A stretch of 64,000 nucleotides of DNA, from contig NZ_LT607653.1 in assembly GCF_900095265.1 (NCBI RefSeq), positions 124,001 to 188,000 on the forward strand. Reading direction: 5' to 3'. Positions 28,480 through 59,740 of this stretch are shown in pieces (within the stretch, counting starts at the first letter, position 1; each line of letters opens with the position of its first letter). Under the pieces are notes generated by a model, which was not told where the DNA came from, did no database searches, and worked only from the letters and a program-made list of their open reading frames with translations. This DNA comes from Janthinobacterium sp. UMAB-56. Its GTDB lineage: Bacteria; Pseudomonadota; Gammaproteobacteria; Burkholderiales; Burkholderiaceae_D. Made by a program: the position numbers and the translations under genes.

Positions 28480-30645
28480 ATGCCTGATACGATGCATCAA
28501 TCTGATCAAGATATTCGCAATCGCCTGCTGATTGCCCGCCTGCCGGCCATGCCGCAGATCCTCATCAAGCTGATCGCCCACCTGCAGGCCGACGATGCCG
28601 GCATGCCGGAACTGGCCGCGCTCATCGCCAAGGATGCGGGCATGACCAGCAAGATCCTCGGCGTGGCCAGCAGCTCGGCCTACCATCGCCAGGGCAAGGT
28701 CGTCAGCCTGGAGCAATCGCTCGTGTCGCTGGGTACGGACATGATCAAGACCCTGGTCATCAGCGAATCCGTCTTCCAGACCTTCAACAGCTTTCCCCAT
28801 TCCGGCAGCACGGATTTGCGCGCCTTCTGGAAAAGTTCGCTATCGGCTGCCGTCATGGCGCGCGCACTGGCCAAGGCCATGGCCTATCCGCACGTCGAGG
28901 AAGCGTATCTGGCAGGATTGCTGCACAACGTGGGCCGCCTGGCCTTGCTGGCCACGGCGCCGAAAGAGTATGCGTTCAATTTCACGGCGCGCGACGATGC
29001 CGCCCTGTGCGCGGTGGAGCAGCGCACCTTGCAGATCACGCATGCCGAAGCGGGTGCCTGGCTGATCGAGCGCTGGCATCTCGATTCCTTCCTGGCCGAT
29101 AGCGTGCTGTATCACCACGAACCGCTGGCGCGCCTGGAAGCGAGCCATCCTTTGATCCGCATCGTGCGCCTGGCGCACCTGCTGTGCTGTCATGCCGACG
29201 ATGCGGACTCGATCACGCAGGCGGCAAGCCTGTGTGCGCTGGACGTCGAGGTACTGGAAGACCTGGCCGGCAGCGTGGCGCGCCAGGTGGCGCAGGCCGC
29301 GCAGCACCTGGGCATCGACCTGGCAGGCGCCGACGATATCGCCACGCCGCCCGCGTATGCGCCGCCACCGGTCGATCCGGTGCAGCAGCGCCTGTCCGAC
29401 GAAGTGCGCAACATGGTGCTGGTGTCCGAAGTGGGGCAGACCTTCGCCCGGCAGCAGGGCGAAACCAGCCTGCTCGAAGCCATCACGCGCTCGGCGCGCA
29501 TCCTGTTCGACTTCGACACCGCCGTCATCCTGCTGCAAAACCCCACCGGCCATGCACTGGTCGGCGTGGCAGCGGGAGAACATCAGCAGCGCCTGGCCGG
29601 CTTCTCGATCCCGCTCGCCAAGGGCGGGCCCTTGGCCGCCTCGGCGCTGGAGTGTCAGTTGGCGTTCCTGAAACGCGACATGCCGGCGCTGGGCATCGTT
29701 GAGGAGCAGCTGTTCCGCATTCTCGGTACCGATAGCCTGGTCTGCGTGCCTTTGGCGTCTGGCCAGCGCAGCCTGGGCGTGCTCATTGGCGGCGTGGCGG
29801 CGTGGCAGATTCCCGCTTGCCAGAAGCGCGAGGGTTTCTTGCGCGCCTATGCCAACCAGGCCGCCATGGCGCTGGAAACGGCCGTCAGTGCGCGCGGCCT
29901 GGCACGGCGCCAGCTCGATCACGTGGCCGAGGAATACCGCGCCGCATCGCGCCGCGTCGTGCATGAGGTGAATAACCCGCTGTCCATCATCAAGAATTAC
30001 CTCAGCGTGCTCGATCACAAGCTGGAGAAGCAGGAGCCGGTGAGCGGCGAGATGGCTATCCTGAACGAGGAAATTGACCGCGTCGGCCAGTTGATCGGTG
30101 GCCTGGCCGATCTGCAGCCGGTAGTGACCAGTGGCGTGACCGATTGCGCGCGCGTGGTCGACGATGTGCTGCGCCTGTTCCGCGCCACCGATTTCCTGCC
30201 ACCGAAGATCGAGGTGGTCACGCGCATGCAGGACGCGCCATGCGAGGTGGAGGCCGATGCCGACATGCTCAAGCAAATCCTGCTCAACCTGCTGAAAAAC
30301 GCCGTCGAAGCCTTGCCCGAGGGCGGGCGCATCGAAGTGGCGAACCGTGGCCACGTCAACCGGGACCGTCGCCTGTATCTGGAATTGTGCGTCAGCGATA
30401 ATGGTGCTGGCCTGGCGCCGGAAGTGCTGGCCAATCTGTTTTCCCCTGTGCGCAGCAGCAAGGAAGGGGCGCATCACGGCCTGGGCTTATCTATCGTGCA
30501 TGACCTGGTCACGCGCCTGCATGGCGTGATCGGCTGCCGCAGCAGCAAGTCCGGCACCTCGTTTGAAATCTTGCTGCCGATTCCCTTGCCGGTGAGCGCT
30601 GCGGCCGCGCTGCCCGCGCCCGGCAATATCGCCATGTCTTCGTAA
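28480..30645 (+). CDS. HDOD-GAF-histidine kinase hybrid protein
   Basis: A 721-residue signalling protein. Residues about 15-220 form an HDOD domain (LPAMPQILIKLIAHL, LEQSLVSLGTDMIKTLVI, AYLAGLLHNVGRLALL). About 310-455 fit a GAF sensor. Then comes a histidine kinase: H-box RRVVHEVNNPLSIIKNYL with His near 494, N-box LKQILLNLLKNAVEAL, and ATP-lid motifs SDNGAGLAPE and HHGLGLSIV. No membrane segment is seen, so it is cytosolic. Fusing HDOD with a kinase is uncommon. The next gene, five bases on, begins with a receiver domain and is the likely phosphorylation partner. Confidence 0.88.
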   Translation: MPDTMHQSDQDIRNRLLIARLPAMPQILIKLIAHLQADDAGMPELAALIAKDAGMTSKILGVASSSAYHRQGKVVSLEQSLVSLGTDMIKTLVISESVFQTFNSFPHSGSTDLRAFWKSSLSAAVMARALAKAMAYPHVEEAYLAGLLHNVGRLALLATAPKEYAFNFTARDDAALCAVEQRTLQITHAEAGAWLIERWHLDSFLADSVLYHHEPLARLEASHPLIRIVRLAHLLCCHADDADSITQAASLCALDVEVLEDLAGSVARQVAQAAQHLGIDLAGADDIATPPAYAPPPVDPVQQRLSDEVRNMVLVSEVGQTFARQQGETSLLEAITRSARILFDFDTAVILLQNPTGHALVGVAAGEHQQRLAGFSIPLAKGGPLAASALECQLAFLKRDMPALGIVEEQLFRILGTDSLVCVPLASGQRSLGVLIGGVAAWQIPACQKREGFLRAYANQAAMALETAVSARGLARRQLDHVAEEYRAASRRVVHEVNNPLSIIKNYLSVLDHKLEKQEPVSGEMAILNEEIDRVGQLIGGLADLQPVVTSGVTDCARVVDDVLRLFRATDFLPPKIEVVTRMQDAPCEVEADADMLKQILLNLLKNAVEALPEGGRIEVANRGHVNRDRRLYLELCVSDNGAGLAPEVLANLFSPVRSSKEGAHHGLGLSIVHDLVTRLHGVIGCRSSKSGTSFEILLPIPLPVSAAAALPAPGNIAMSS

Positions 30646-32857: not shown

Positions 32858-34462
32858 GTGCCGCTTGCCGCTCCCCGCTACACGGCCGCGCATTCCACGG
32901 CTGCTCATTACACAGCTGCTCATTACACAGCTGATTACCTGCGCCTGAAAGGACTGGCCGAGAAGGGCAATGCGAACGCCCAGCACAGCCTGGGTTTCAT
33001 GTATTTCAATGGCCAGGGGATCGAGCAAAGCTATGCGCAGGCGCTGCACTGGTATGGCCTGGCTGCCGCGCAGGGACTCGAGCACGCGCAATACAACCTG
33101 GGCGTGATGTGCCAGAAGGGACAGGGCGTACCCCAGGATTTTGCGCAAGCGGCGCACTGGTACCAGCAGGCAGCCGAGCAGGGTTACGCAGCGGCGCAAT
33201 ACAACCTGGGCTGGCTGTATGCCAAGGGCCAGGGGCTCGCACAAGATAGCGGGCGGGCCATGCTGTGGTTCAGCCGCGCGGCGGAACAGGGCGACGCCGG
33301 TGCGCAAAACAATCTGGGCATGATGTATGACAATGGCAAGGGCGTGCCGCAGGACTTCGTGCAAGCCATTGCCTGGTACCGCAAGGCGGCCGAACAGGGC
33401 TATGCACGGGCGCAGTTCAACCTGGGCCTGCGCTACGACAATGGCCAGGGCGTGCGCCAGGACCGCCAGCAGGCGACGGCCTGGATGCGCAAGGCCGCTG
33501 AACAGGGCTATGCACCGGCCCAGTTCAACCTGGCGCTGCGCTATGAAAATGGCGACGTGCTGCCGCAGGACAGCGGGCAGGCGATCACCTGGTACCGGCG
33601 CGCGGCCGAGCAGGGCCACGCCAGTTCGCAGTTCAATCTGGGCCTGATCTACGACAATGGTCAGGGCGTGCCCTGCGATAAACAGGCGGCGCTCGAGTGG
33701 TACGTGAAGGCAGCGGGGCAGGGGCATGCGGCGGCCCAGCACAATCTGGGTCTGCATCATGAACATGGCGCGCAGGACTATACCCGGGCGCAGGTGTTCT
33801 ACCGCCAGGCGGCAGGGCAGGGCTTTCCCGCCGCGCAGTATCAGCTGGGACTTTTGCATGAGCATGGGCAGGGCATGCCTGCCGATGCGCAGGAAGCCAT
33901 CGTCTGGTACCGCAAGGCGGCCGATCAGGGACATGTGCGGGCGCAGTTCGACCTGGGCCTGCGATATGAGCATGGTCAGGGCGTGCTGCAGGATTTATCG
34001 CTGGCGCTGGAGTGGTACCGCCGCGCCGCCGAGCAGGATTACGCGCCGGCGCAATACATGCAGGGCGTGCTGCACGACCGCGACGATGGTCCAGCGCCCG
34101 ACAGCCAGCTGGCCTGCGCCTGTTACTGCCGCGCCGCCGCGCAGGGCCACAGCCTGGCCCAGTTTGCGCTGGGCCTGCGGCATGACAATGGCCAGGATGT
34201 GCCGCAGGATTATGCCGCCGCCCGGGACTGGTATGCGCTGGCCGCGCGCCAGGGCCATGCGCGGGCACAAATGAATCTGGGCTTGATGGCGGCCAGCGGC
34301 CAGGGTGGACCGCTCGATTTGCAGCAGGCGTATTTCTGGCTGTCGATGGCCGCAGCGGCGGGCGTGGCCGGTGCGGAAAAAACCTTGCGCCAGACAGCAG
34401 CGCGCATGCGCGAGACAGATCTGGCGCGGGTGCGCGAGCAACTGGCGGCGATAGCCGGCTAA
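32858..34462 (+). CDS. Sel1-repeat protein (about 13 repeats)
   Basis: A 534-residue protein made of about thirteen Sel1-like (SLR) helical repeats of 36 residues, such as AQYNLGVMCQKGQGVPQDFAQAAHWYQQAAEQG. Such scaffolds mediate protein-protein contacts, often in signalling. No signal peptide or membrane helix is seen. I prefer the GTG at 32858, which has GAGG at proper distance; the TTG at 32852 overlaps the previous stop. The N-terminus repeats AAHYT, encoded by a perfect 15-bp tandem duplication at 32901-32930. Tight spacing links it with the two-component c-di-GMP genes. Confidence 0.88.
   Translation: MPLAAPRYTAAHSTAAHYTAAHYTADYLRLKGLAEKGNANAQHSLGFMYFNGQGIEQSYAQALHWYGLAAAQGLEHAQYNLGVMCQKGQGVPQDFAQAAHWYQQAAEQGYAAAQYNLGWLYAKGQGLAQDSGRAMLWFSRAAEQGDAGAQNNLGMMYDNGKGVPQDFVQAIAWYRKAAEQGYARAQFNLGLRYDNGQGVRQDRQQATAWMRKAAEQGYAPAQFNLALRYENGDVLPQDSGQAITWYRRAAEQGHASSQFNLGLIYDNGQGVPCDKQAALEWYVKAAGQGHAAAQHNLGLHHEHGAQDYTRAQVFYRQAAGQGFPAAQYQLGLLHEHGQGMPADAQEAIVWYRKAADQGHVRAQFDLGLRYEHGQGVLQDLSLALEWYRRAAEQDYAPAQYMQGVLHDRDDGPAPDSQLACACYCRAAAQGHSLAQFALGLRHDNGQDVPQDYAAARDWYALAARQGHARAQMNLGLMAASGQGGPLDLQQAYFWLSMAAAAGVAGAEKTLRQTAARMRETDLARVREQLAAIAG
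32901..32930 (+). repeat. 15-bp perfect tandem duplication within the Sel1 gene
   Basis: CTGCTCATTACACAG occurs twice in succession and a degenerate copy lies just before it. The unit is five codons, so copy-number change keeps the frame. Confidence 0.8.
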
Positions 34463-55202: not shown

Positions 55203-56193
55203 ATGAGCCAAGCCCTTCACAGCCAAGCCCGCACCACTCATCTGATCCGGGACGAAATCCGCAACTCGACGCTCTCTCAACGGGAACTGGCTGAGCGCTA
55301 CAATGTCAGTCGTCTGACGATCCGCAAGTGGCAGAACCGCGACAGCGCCGAGGATCTTTCGCACCGGCCAGGTATCATGCACACCACGCTCACGCCGGCG
55401 CAGGAATTGATCGTCGTGGAGCTGCGCACCACGCTGCTGCTGCCCACCGACGACCTGCTGGCGGTGGCCCGCGAGTTCGTCAATCCAGCGCTTTCGCGCG
55501 CCGCCCTGGGTCGCTGCCTGCGCCGTCATGGTGTCTCCAGCCTGCTTGAACTGGCCGCCCGGGAAACCGATAAGCCCGTCACCAAAAAGTCGTTCAAGGA
55601 CTACGAGCCCGGCTTTTTATATATGGATATCAAGTACTTGCCGCAGATGCCTGACGAAACCGAACGTCGTTACCTGTTCGTCGCCATCGACCGCGCCACG
55701 CGCTGGGTTTTCATGGAGATCTATGCCGACCAGTCCGACATTAGTAGCACCGACTTCCTGATCAAGCTCAACAATGCCTGTCCGATCGCCATCGTCAAGC
55801 TCCTCACTGACAATGGCAGTCAGTTCACCGACCGCTTTAGCAGCAAGAAAAAAGACCCGGAAACGGGCGACCGGATTCCCAGCGGCAAGCACGCGTTTGA
55901 CGTGCTATGCAAGCAACTGGCGATCGAACATCGCCTGATCCCGCCACGTCATCCTCAGACCAACGGCATGGTGGAACGCTTCAACGACCGCATCAGCGAG
56001 GTCGTCAATCAGACCCGTTTCGCGTCCAGGGCCGAGCTCGAATCAACACTGCGCAATTATCTGAAAATCTATAACCACAACATCCCACAGCGTGCCCTCA
56101 ACAACGAAACACCGATTCAGGCAATGAAGAAATGGCAGGCGAAAAAGCCGGAATTATTCGTTAAACGTGTCTATAACCAGGTGGGTCTTGACA
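55182..56193 (+). mobile_element. IS481-family insertion sequence (boundaries approximate)
   Basis: About 1.0 kb, containing one complete transposase. The right end shows TGTCAAGACCCACCTGG inverted (outer base 56193). The left end TGTCACCCA (from 55182) agrees only in part, so the left boundary is uncertain. No clear target duplication was seen. The GC content resembles the chromosome rather than the AT-rich cassette it interrupts. Confidence 0.65.
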
Positions 56194-56198
56194 GTTAA
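55203..56198 (+). CDS. IS481-family transposase
   Basis: DDE transposase of 331 residues, apparently intact. N-terminal helix-turn-helix (LSQRELAERYNVSRLTIRKWQNR) is followed by the rve core: first Asp in FLYMDIKYLPQM, second in LLTDNGSQFTDR, and Glu in TNGMVERFNDRI. The C-terminus YNQVGLDS is encoded across the right inverted repeat, so the stop codon lies at or just beyond the element end. It could still be active. Confidence 0.92.
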   Translation: MSQALHSQARTTHLIRDEIRNSTLSQRELAERYNVSRLTIRKWQNRDSAEDLSHRPGIMHTTLTPAQELIVVELRTTLLLPTDDLLAVAREFVNPALSRAALGRCLRRHGVSSLLELAARETDKPVTKKSFKDYEPGFLYMDIKYLPQMPDETERRYLFVAIDRATRWVFMEIYADQSDISSTDFLIKLNNACPIAIVKLLTDNGSQFTDRFSSKKKDPETGDRIPSGKHAFDVLCKQLAIEHRLIPPRHPQTNGMVERFNDRISEVVNQTRFASRAELESTLRNYLKIYNHNIPQRALNNETPIQAMKKWQAKKPELFVKRVYNQVGLDS

Positions 56199-56277: not shown

Positions 56278-57158
56278 TTAACTTTGACACAACCTTAATG
56301 CGTCATGCCAATTCGGAATGCGACAAAAAGTATCCATCAAGCGTTGTGACGTTGTGATGATAGTAATGAATTGATCGGACGCTTCGCCGGTACAGGATAG
56401 TCTTGGGCTAATATCGGTTTTAATCTTGGCTTTTTCGTCATTGAAGGATGGGCCATGATCGCTTCGGTAAAGCCGAACCAGCTGGTCCTTCCTTGCGCCG
56501 TCAAATGATATAAGCCGGCGCGTGCCTGCCACCATGTTTGCTGGTCGCTTGTCGCCAGGCTTTGTGCCACGATATGCGCCGTGGTATCGGCGATGGTACG
56601 GCTCCATGTCGGTGCGCCGAACTGATCGGATACGATATTTAGTTCTTCGCGCTCCTTTGCCAGGCGCAGCATGGTCAACAGAAAATTCTTGCCATGCGTG
56701 CTATAGACCCAACTGGTGCGCAAGATCAGGTGTGGGATGCCGGTGGCCTGGATCGCCTGTTCGCCGGCCAGCTTGCTGCTACCGTACACATTGATCGGGC
56801 TGGTTGGATCGGTTTCGACGTAGGGGCCATCTTTCGAGCCATCAAATACGTAGTCGGTGCTGTAATGGATCATCGCGGCGCCCAGTTTTTTGGCTTCTTC
56901 CGCCATCAAGCCCGGTGCTTCGCCGTTGATGCGCAGTGCCAGTTCAGGCTCGCTCTCGGCCTTGTCAACAGCGGTGTAGGCCGCCGGATTAACGATCAGC
57001 GTCGGCTTGATGCGGCGAATTACATCGCGTACCTGGTCCAGGTCGGCCAGGTCCATCTGGCTGCGGTCTAGCGCGATGATCTCTCCCAGACCTTGCAGGC
57101 TACGTTCCAGTTCGTAACCGACCTGGCCGTTTTTTCCTGTAATTAAGATACGGCTCAT
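56278..57158 (-). pseudogene. rfbD: dTDP-4-dehydrorhamnose reductase with C-terminal frameshift
   Basis: Reductase for the last step of dTDP-L-rhamnose synthesis. The Rossmann start ILITGKNGQVGYELERSL, catalytic STDYVFDGSKDGPY, YGSSKLAGEQ and RTSWVYSTHGKNF are intact from the ATG at 57158. Near the end, CGTTGTGA occurs twice in tandem (56342-56357 on the plus strand). This 8-bp duplication shifts the frame, so translation stops at 56337 after 273 residues (ending SSQRHNA). Removing one copy restores ...SSQRLMDTFCRIPNW and DALRLCQS to a stop at 56278, a normal 290 residues. The enzyme may be damaged, phase-variable or still partly active. Confidence 0.85.
56342..56357. repeat. Perfect 8-bp tandem duplication inside rfbD
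   Basis: CGTTGTGA CGTTGTGA. The unit is not a multiple of three, so one copy keeps and two copies break the rfbD frame. Confidence 0.95.
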
Positions 57159-57198: not shown

Positions 57199-57744
57199 TC
57201 AGGCGAAGACGTCGGCATTGGCCAGCAATGTGCCGACTTTGTCCTTGCCAGACAGTAACGGTTCGCCGTCCAGCGGCCAGTCGATGCCGATCGCCGGGTC
57301 ATTCCACAGGATGCTGCGTTCGAATTCCGGCGCCCAATAGTCGGTGGTCTTGTACAGGAACTCTGCGCTCTCGCTGGTCACCACGAAGCCGTGGGCGAAA
57401 CCTTCAGGTATCCACAACTGGCATTTGTTGGCGGCCGACAGGACTACGCCAACCCAGTGGCCGAAGGTTGGCGAGCTTTTGCGCAGGTCGACGGCAACGT
57501 CGAAGACTTCGCCGGCCGTCACACGCACCAGCTTGCCTTGCGGCTGCTGGATCTGATAATGCAGGCCGCGCAACACGCCCTTGGCGGACTTGGAGTGGTT
57601 GTCCTGCACGAAGTCGCGCGTAATTCCAGTCAGTTCGGTAAAGCGTTTCTGGTTAAAACTCTCATAGAAAAAGCCGCGATCATCGCCAAAGACAGTAGGC
57701 TCGATGATCAGCACGTCCGGAATTGCTGTGGTTTGAATTTGCAT
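57199..57744 (-). CDS. rfbC: dTDP-4-dehydrorhamnose 3,5-epimerase
   Basis: Cupin-fold epimerase of 181 residues, third enzyme of dTDP-L-rhamnose synthesis. Motifs: EPTVFGDDRGFFYESFNQKRF at the start, FVQDNHSKSAKGVLRGLHYQ with the catalytic His, VRVTAGEVFDVAVDLRKSSPTFG and WIPEGFAHGFVV, then the family Tyr region LYKTTDYW. Normal length. It lies 23 bases after rfbA and 40 bases before rfbD. Confidence 0.96.
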   Translation of the reverse strand: MQIQTTAIPDVLIIEPTVFGDDRGFFYESFNQKRFTELTGITRDFVQDNHSKSAKGVLRGLHYQIQQPQGKLVRVTAGEVFDVAVDLRKSSPTFGHWVGVVLSAANKCQLWIPEGFAHGFVVTSESAEFLYKTTDYWAPEFERSILWNDPAIGIDWPLDGEPLLSGKDKVGTLLANADVFA

Positions 57745-57767: not shown

Positions 57768-58664
57768 TTAATATATTTTTTCTTCGAGCAGGCGCAGCAG
57801 GTATTGGCCATACGCGTTTTTCTTCAATGGCTGGGCTAGTTGTTCCAGTTTGGCGGCATCGATATACCCTTTACGGTAGGCGATTTCTTCCGGGCAGGCG
57901 ACTTTCAATCCCTGGCGATTTTCGATGGTGGCGATGAATTGGCCTGCTTCAAGCAAGGATTCATGTGTGCCGGTATCGAGCCAGGCCATGCCGCGCCCCA
58001 TCAGCTCAACGTTCAACTGACCGCGTTCCAGATAAACCCGATTGACGTCGGTGATTTCCAGTTCGCCGCGAGGTGATGGTGCGATGCCGGCGGCGATGTC
58101 GCATACCTGGCGATCGTAGAAATACAGGCCGGTGACGGCGTAGTTCGATTTTGGTTTGAGCGGTTTTTCTTCGATGCTGACGGCGCGCCGCTGTGCGTCG
58201 AAGTCGACCACGCCATAACGTTCCGGATCGGTCACATGGTAAGCGAACACGGTCGAGCCGCTGGTGCGTGCCGAGGCTTCGCGTAACTGCGATTCAAAGT
58301 CGTGCCCATAATAGATGTTGTCACCCAAAATCAGCGCCGATGGCGCATCGCCGACAAACTCTTTGCCAATGATGAAGGCCTGTGCCAGGCCATCCGGGCT
58401 CGGCTGCACTGCATAGGTCAGGCTGATACCCCACTGGCTGCCGTCACCCAGCAACTCCTGGAAGCGAGGCGTATCTTGTGGCGTGGAAATGATCAGGATA
58501 TCGCGTATGCCGGCCAGCATCAGGGTGGTCAGCGGATAGTAAATCATCGGCTTGTCATACACGGGCAGCAATTGCTTCGATACTGCCATGGTGACCGGGT
58601 ACAGCCGCGTGCCTGAACCACCGGCCAGGATGATGCCTTTGCGTTCGATCGGTGCGCTCATCAT
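57768..58664 (-). CDS. rfbA: Glucose-1-phosphate thymidylyltransferase
   Basis: Makes dTDP-glucose from dTTP and glucose-1-phosphate, first step of the rhamnose pathway. 298 residues, normal. [36 protein letters not shown] is the classic start, followed by [21 protein letters not shown] and the [19 protein letters not shown] region. The ATG at 58664 overlaps the rfbB stop (ATGA); an adjoining ATG at 58661 is equally possible. A long upstream frame inside rfbB is spurious. Confidence 0.96.
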
Positions 58665-59740
58665 GCCGATTCCTTTGCCGCATCGCGTGCCGCGTAGTTT
58701 TTCTCTACCCACTTCAGATAATCGCCCGACTGCACGTCGCGTACCCAGGCCTGGTTGTCCAGGTACCACTGGACCGTCTTGCGTATGCCCGTGGCGAAGG
58801 TTTCTGCCGGCTTCCAGCCCAGTTCGCGCTCGATCTTGCGCGCATCGATGGCATAGCGGCGGTCGTGGCCAGGGCGATCCTGTACATAGGTGATTTGTTC
58901 GCGATAGCTGCCAGAAGCCTTCGGGTCCAGCGTATCGAGGATGTCGCACAGGGTATGCACGACTTCCAGATTGGCCATTTCATTCCAGCCGCCCACGTTG
59001 TAGACCTCGCCCAGACGTCCCGCTTCCAGCACGCGACGAATCGCCGAGCAATGGTCGCCTACATACAGCCAGTCGCGCACTTGCATGCCGTCGCCATAGA
59101 TAGGCAATGGCTTGCCGGCACGGGCGTTGCTGATGATGAGGGGAATCAGTTTTTCCGGGAAATGGAAAGAGCCATAGTTGTTTGAGCAGTTTGTCGTCAG
59201 CACCGGCATGCCATACGTATGGAAATAGGCGCGTACCAGATGGTCGGAGGCTGCTTTCGATGCCGAATAGGGGCTGTTCGGCGCATACGGCGTCGTTTCC
59301 GTGAATGGGGGATCTTGCGGACCCAGGGTGCCATAGACTTCATCGGTCGAGACGTGCAGGAAACGGAAACCATCCTTGGCCTCGCCCGTCAGGCCGGACC
59401 AATAGGCACGCGCGGCTTCGAGCAAGCTGAAAGTGCCATTGACGTTGGTCGAAATGAATTCACCTGGGCTATGAATCGAGCGGTCGACATGGCTTTCCGC
59501 CGCAAAATGCACGACGGCGCGCGGCTTATGTTCTGCCAACAGGCGGGAGACGTGATCGGTATCGCAAATATCGCCGCGTACAAAGATATGCCGCGGGTCT
59601 TGCTCCAGGCTGGCCAGATTACTGAGATTGCCTGCGTAAGTCAGTTTATCGAAGTTGATGACGGGCTCATCATTGAGCGCCAGCCAATCGCGTACAAAAT
59701 TTGACCCGATGAAGCCGGCGCCGCCAGTAACTAAAATCAT
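58661..59740 (-). CDS. rfbB: dTDP-glucose 4,6-dehydratase
   Basis: Short-chain dehydrogenase of 359 residues, second step of dTDP-rhamnose synthesis. The start [44 protein letters not shown], the catalytic [16 protein letters not shown] and [15 protein letters not shown] are all present. It leads the rfbBACD run, with 51 bases of AT-rich DNA between it and wbaP upstream. Confidence 0.97.

Follow-up and report, generated by a model that had tools for sequence, protein, structure and literature searches.

An 8-bp tandem duplication in rfbD of a Janthinobacterium rhamnose operon: probable recent inactivation of a redundant gene

In the 64-kb stretch of Janthinobacterium DNA analysed here (the window), the rfbBACD operon ends in an rfbD that is broken by an exact 8-bp tandem duplication, which is absent from the relatives read. 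A second complete rhamnose operon is present in the same genome, and in 40 genomes of the genus breakage of rfbD is associated with the presence of another intact copy. The best explanation, and a likely one, is that a redundant rfbD at the operon's end was recently inactivated by a de novo 8-bp duplication, that the operon on contig C18 covers for it, and that this is one of several such losses in the genus. The features concerned are:

56337..57158, minus strand: rfbD (rmlD), dTDP-4-dehydrorhamnose reductase, with an early end at 273 aa (...SSQRHNA), matched by TIGR01214 and Pfam RmlD_sub_bind
56342..56357: exact 8-bp tandem duplication, CGTTGTGA twice (TCACAACG twice on the coding strand), without a double copy in any orthologue examined
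56335..56339, minus strand: TGATG, the new stop overlapping an ATG of the old frame, at which re-initiation would yield a 19-aa tail peptide
56278..56341, minus strand: old C-terminal end of rfbD, out of frame, free of internal stops, conserved P and W kept
57202..57744, minus strand: rfbC (rmlC), intact, 181 aa, TIGR01221 280.6 bits (cut-off 155.75)
57771..58661, minus strand: rfbA (rmlA), intact, 297 aa, TIGR01207 530.1 bits (cut-off 360.65)
58664..59740, minus strand: rfbB (rmlB), intact, 359 aa, TIGR01181 502.4 bits (cut-off 365.1)
55203..56198, plus strand: IS481-family transposase gene, NF033577 243 bits (cut-off 224)

The duplication was read directly from the sequence, in which the two copies at 56342-56357 together give CGTTGTGACGTTGTGA. 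From the conserved ATG at 57158 the frame runs on the minus strand to a stop at 56337, a length of 273 aa (the open reading frame list gives 321 aa, counted from an upstream ATG), and at the repeat acquires the new C-terminus ...KRPINSLLSSQRHNA. Beyond the repeat an alternative frame, ...RLMDTFCRIPNWHDALRLCQS with its stop at 56278-56280, encodes the C-terminus of the family, and with a single copy of the 8-mer rfbD reads through to 290 residues, as counted by hand, retaining the conserved P and W. The first-pass annotation had proposed both the frame-breaking duplication with its SSQRHNA tail and the family-like one-copy reading, and both are confirmed; none of the homologues read ends naturally at SSQRHNA. 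A slippery heptamer was not seen by eye at the new stop, and programmed frameshifting was set aside.

Comparison within the genus indicates that the double copy is the derived state. The best named matches are from Janthinobacterium sp. SUN073 (93%) and J. lividum PAMC 25724 (90%), and full-length window-type rfbD genes encode 286-304 aa, all with a P-x-W end. Among 16 tails compared, including those of G011 and G016, whose genes are broken at other sites, TCACAACG occurs once in five (G055, G054, G002, G023 and G020), in a diverged version in 11 and as a double copy in none; L025 and L027 were left out of the orthologue list used for rfbD ends. The 16-mer comprising both copies is unique in its own 6.1-Mb genome and, with at most one mismatch allowed, has other matches in the 40 genus genomes only in G009 and G005, at sites other than their rfbD genes. 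An exact 8-bp tandem is not rare in itself, about one being expected by chance per 64 kb: the window holds two, including that in rfbD, against a mean of 1.0 and a maximum of 3 in 40 first-order Markov simulations of the window, and the repeat number at rfbD is thus not beyond chance. Such repeats arise by chance, but the orthologues lack the one in rfbD, and chance was rejected as a full account; since the orthologues are without a double copy and the break sits exactly at the repeat, the repeat is taken to be a mutation. The other 8-bp tandem (TGGCGGCG) extends over 20 nt at 29787-29806, and a 15-bp unit is repeated in tandem over 34 nt at 32900-32933.

A search for another rfbD in the same genome detected an intact gene (C18:90416-91219, 51% identical to that of the window) inside a complete rmlB-D-A-C (rfbB-D-A-C) operon on contig C18 (L135:7347-10742), with ABC-2 membrane and ABC/Wzt_C genes downstream. 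Its RmlD (L135:8414-9307, 298 aa) scores above the cut-offs of both NCBIfam RmlD models (NF007440, 418.3 bits with a cut-off of 308; TIGR01214, 325.1 bits with a cut-off of 224.05), and RmlB (499.4 bits, cut-off 365.1), RmlA (519.5, cut-off 360.65) and RmlC (265.2, cut-off 155.75) likewise, so that for every enzyme one or more curated NCBIfam models are matched above cut-off. For certain narrower models of RmlA and RmlB the scores stay below the cut-off in the second operon, as they do with RfbA and RfbB of the window. Given this second complete operon, neither loss nor switching of rhamnose at the genome level follows from the rfbD break, and the suggestions of the first-pass annotation that the strain may have lost rhamnose, or may turn its synthesis on and off, are left unsupported.

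The relation between breakage and redundancy was surveyed in 40 genomes of the genus, related and one per species, which were searched with RfbD, RfbC, RfbA and RfbB and the loci then read; weak matches (at most 38% identity) were set aside as presumably other enzymes. Seven genomes carry a window-type rfbD together with another intact rfbD, and in five of these the window-type gene is broken (this genome, G000, and G008, G011, G016 and G049), both copies being intact in G002 and G047. A single rfbD is present in 32 genomes (27 of the window's type, five of another type), and all are full length (0/32 broken). These 32 include two genomes less than 90% complete (G051 and G053) and four with a window-type rfbBAC from which rfbD is not adjacent but lies elsewhere (G004, G010, G012 and G050); G013 (82% complete, without rfbD) was left out of the table. 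Fisher's test, which ignores kinship and is indicative only, gives p = 3.6e-5 for 5/7 against 0/32, 7.5e-5 within the window's type (5/7 against 0/27), 2.0e-4 without G016 and 1.3e-3 without both G016 and G000. The lesions are:

G000: the 8-bp duplication
G008: cut short after about 34 aa
G011: C-terminal shift, and also altered at G8, D102, W150 and R260, which are otherwise invariant
G016: one-base shift near residue 160, with rfbBAC not adjacent in the 18 kb read
G049: two remnants beside rfbC, covering about residues 1-35 and 225-270, with starts 1148 bases apart and residues of about 36-224 lost

The lesion in G016 may be a sequencing error. That the five lesions are all different speaks for independent events, and the pattern would, on this comparison of gene sequences, be best explained if redundant rfbD genes had been lost several times independently within Janthinobacterium. 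The retention of two intact rfbD genes in G002 and G047 is a point against loss through redundancy. At the window-type locus of G008, rfbB, rfbA and rfbC remain and rfbD is lost; in its second operon, rfbB, rfbD and rfbC remain beside an rfbA which starts only at residue 194, its first 193 aa lost (L139:8652-8753 and L140:8436-8744 mark the two losses). The gene lost differs between the two operons, and RmlABCD is therefore encoded only by both together. A separate observation concerns G042, in which rfbC falls into two overlapping frames around residue 25 (L166:7241-7785) and the sole other rfbC match is 38% identical; this is either a sequencing error or a genuine break for which no close backup exists.

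Selection on the remainder of the gene does not distinguish it from its relatives. Over codons 1-268, dN/dS against ten orthologues averages 0.099, within the orthologues' own range of 0.075-0.130, giving no signal of relaxed selection, and no decay beyond the break was seen by dN/dS or as internal stops in the out-of-frame tail. Normal dN/dS implies that the break is young, or is an assembly error, or that the short protein is harmless or still working. Of the characters of a redundant pseudogene, a frame broken with respect to orthologues and an intact gene for the same step are both present, whereas relaxed selection is not, which means that the break is too young or that the gene is still used. 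Normal dN/dS and the open tail, together with the retained cofactor and catalytic motifs described below, are points against inactivation.

An assembly or sequencing error, with the isolate truly one-copy and its rfbD intact, would account for the normal constraint, and the assembly is a draft of 82 contigs; many called pseudogenes stem from assembly, according to the part of PMC11017572 consulted. Homopolymer-type errors, however, do not take the form of an exact 8-base tandem insertion in non-repetitive sequence, and the break sits in a genome with a backup, as do the other broken copies (5/7 against 0/32). We regard such an error as unlikely.

A second alternative, that the 273-aa protein retains reductase activity and the change is neutral, is favoured by what the protein retains. 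The GxxGQxG cofactor motif, YSTDYVFDG, YxxxK and RPxxS are all kept, relaxation is absent, and the score against TIGR01214 rmlD is still 319.1 bits (cut-off 224.05), with positions 1-262 of the 285 in the profile matched; the Pfam RmlD_sub_bind match reaches 262 of 287. The truncated protein falls below the second RmlD model, NF007440 (277.8 against 308), as does the full-length orthologue of G055 (288.9). In its operon, motifs and score the window's gene resembles the known RmlD/RfbD enzymes (TIGR01214; PDB 1KBZ and 1N2S), 1kbz being the best solved match to the profile of its relatives, and differs from them in that the last 20 residues, including the P-x-W, are replaced by HNA. P279 and W281 are invariant in 18/18 relatives and paralogues (alignment A2), and the full-length relatives read retain the P-x-W end, which is absent from the window's frame and argues against a neutral change. 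AlphaFold models, from shallow alignments of 18 and 19 sequences (mean pLDDT 76.8 and 78.7), place a helix at 269-275 and a low-confidence helix at 279-289 in the G055 orthologue, whereas confidence is below 50 over residues 255-273 of the short form. The parts of PMC6487966 consulted contain nothing on the C-terminus. Continued activity is, in our estimation, quite improbable, marginally more so than an error.

Under the preferred reading, recent inactivation of a redundant gene, the duplication would shift the frame of the last gene of rfbBACD and exchange the last 20 residues of RmlD for three foreign ones, leaving a short protein which is probably inactive. The C18 operon would supply dTDP-L-rhamnose and cover for the window's rfbD, and inactivation is probably tolerated because this second complete operon makes the sugar nucleotide. 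The duplication itself may have arisen without slippage: the repeat run is exactly 16 nt, with zero microhomology flanking the duplication ends, and the lack of an extra matching base on either side argues against ordinary slippage. In an E. coli topA mutant, de novo head-to-tail duplications of 2-19 bp occur independently of existing repeats, and the authors deem polymerase slippage unlikely (PMC6954433, seen in part); the 8-bp duplication in rfbD would similarly be a short, repeat-independent tandem duplication.

Phase variation commonly affects polysaccharide genes, and the first-pass annotation had viewed the duplication as a slipped-strand on/off switch. Like simple-sequence-repeat systems, the lesion is a direct repeat that breaks the frame of a gene for surface polysaccharide; its unit length of 8 is not divisible by 3, a direct repeat can drop a copy by slippage, and constraint on rfbD is intact. 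It differs from such systems in having just two copies and no repeat tract, at a frequency expected by chance, and an intact RmlD elsewhere which would mask switching. The repeat is absent at rfbD in all the other genus genomes (different species rather than strains of the same species), and in the other genomes rfbD was lost through lesions of a different nature, the majority of which could hardly revert. Repeat-mediated switching is sought through repeat numbers unexpected from genome composition, as stated in the part of a review consulted (PMC11868660). With two copies, relatives without the repeat, no microhomology and a backup gene, phase variation was rejected as the main reading; slipped-strand switching is unsupported and very unlikely.

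The IS481-family transposase gene sits between two convergent gene blocks, about 80 bp past the old rfbD stop. Related but partial sequences occur at other places in the genome, including one at the end of contig C18. As the gene lies at that distance and does not reach the repeat, it was set aside as a likely cause of the duplication. The content downstream of rfbD, or of rfbC where rfbD is gone, varies among 14 loci compared; shared downstream genes are seen by eye in G010/G012/G047, G049/G055 and G000/G004, and candidate transposase-like frames lie downstream in G019, G024 and G049. rfbD may lie at the edge of a variable segment. Clean footprints of departed insertion sequences are rare in bacteria, and although the exact length, zero microhomology and nearby IS481-family gene would suit the footprint of a departed element with an 8-bp target duplication, no element remnant lies between the copies and crowding of insertion sequences on the rfbD flank was not shown, making this origin scarcely credible. 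Equally remote is a two-piece RmlD, in which a re-initiated 19-residue peptide, MDTFCRIPNWHDALRLCQS, would dock on the 273-aa body as a weak or regulated second enzyme; no Shine-Dalgarno sequence for re-initiation at the TGATG was seen by eye.

Duplicated rfb sets in Oxalobacteraceae and the idea of backup are already in print. In the parts of PMC9834719 consulted, all four rfbABCD genes are duplicated in J. lividum and J. svalbardensis, Oxalicibacterium faecigallinarum is noted to have a doubtful short rfbD within a duplicated set, and copies are suggested to maintain the protein level if one breaks. According to that paper, none of the rfb genes in its 20 genomes carries deletions or nonsense mutations, in contrast to the five broken copies among the 40 genomes of the present survey. 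A limited search of titles and abstract beginnings in the open literature found no report of a broken rfbD in Janthinobacterium.

In the genomes searched, breaks in the window-type rfbD recur and are confined to genomes with a second, intact rfbD; in G008, the duplicated operons provide a natural example of reciprocal loss. A simpler, testable idea, the loss of redundant copies, thus takes the place of the striking idea of a rhamnose switch, and a break in one operon tells little about a strain's sugars.
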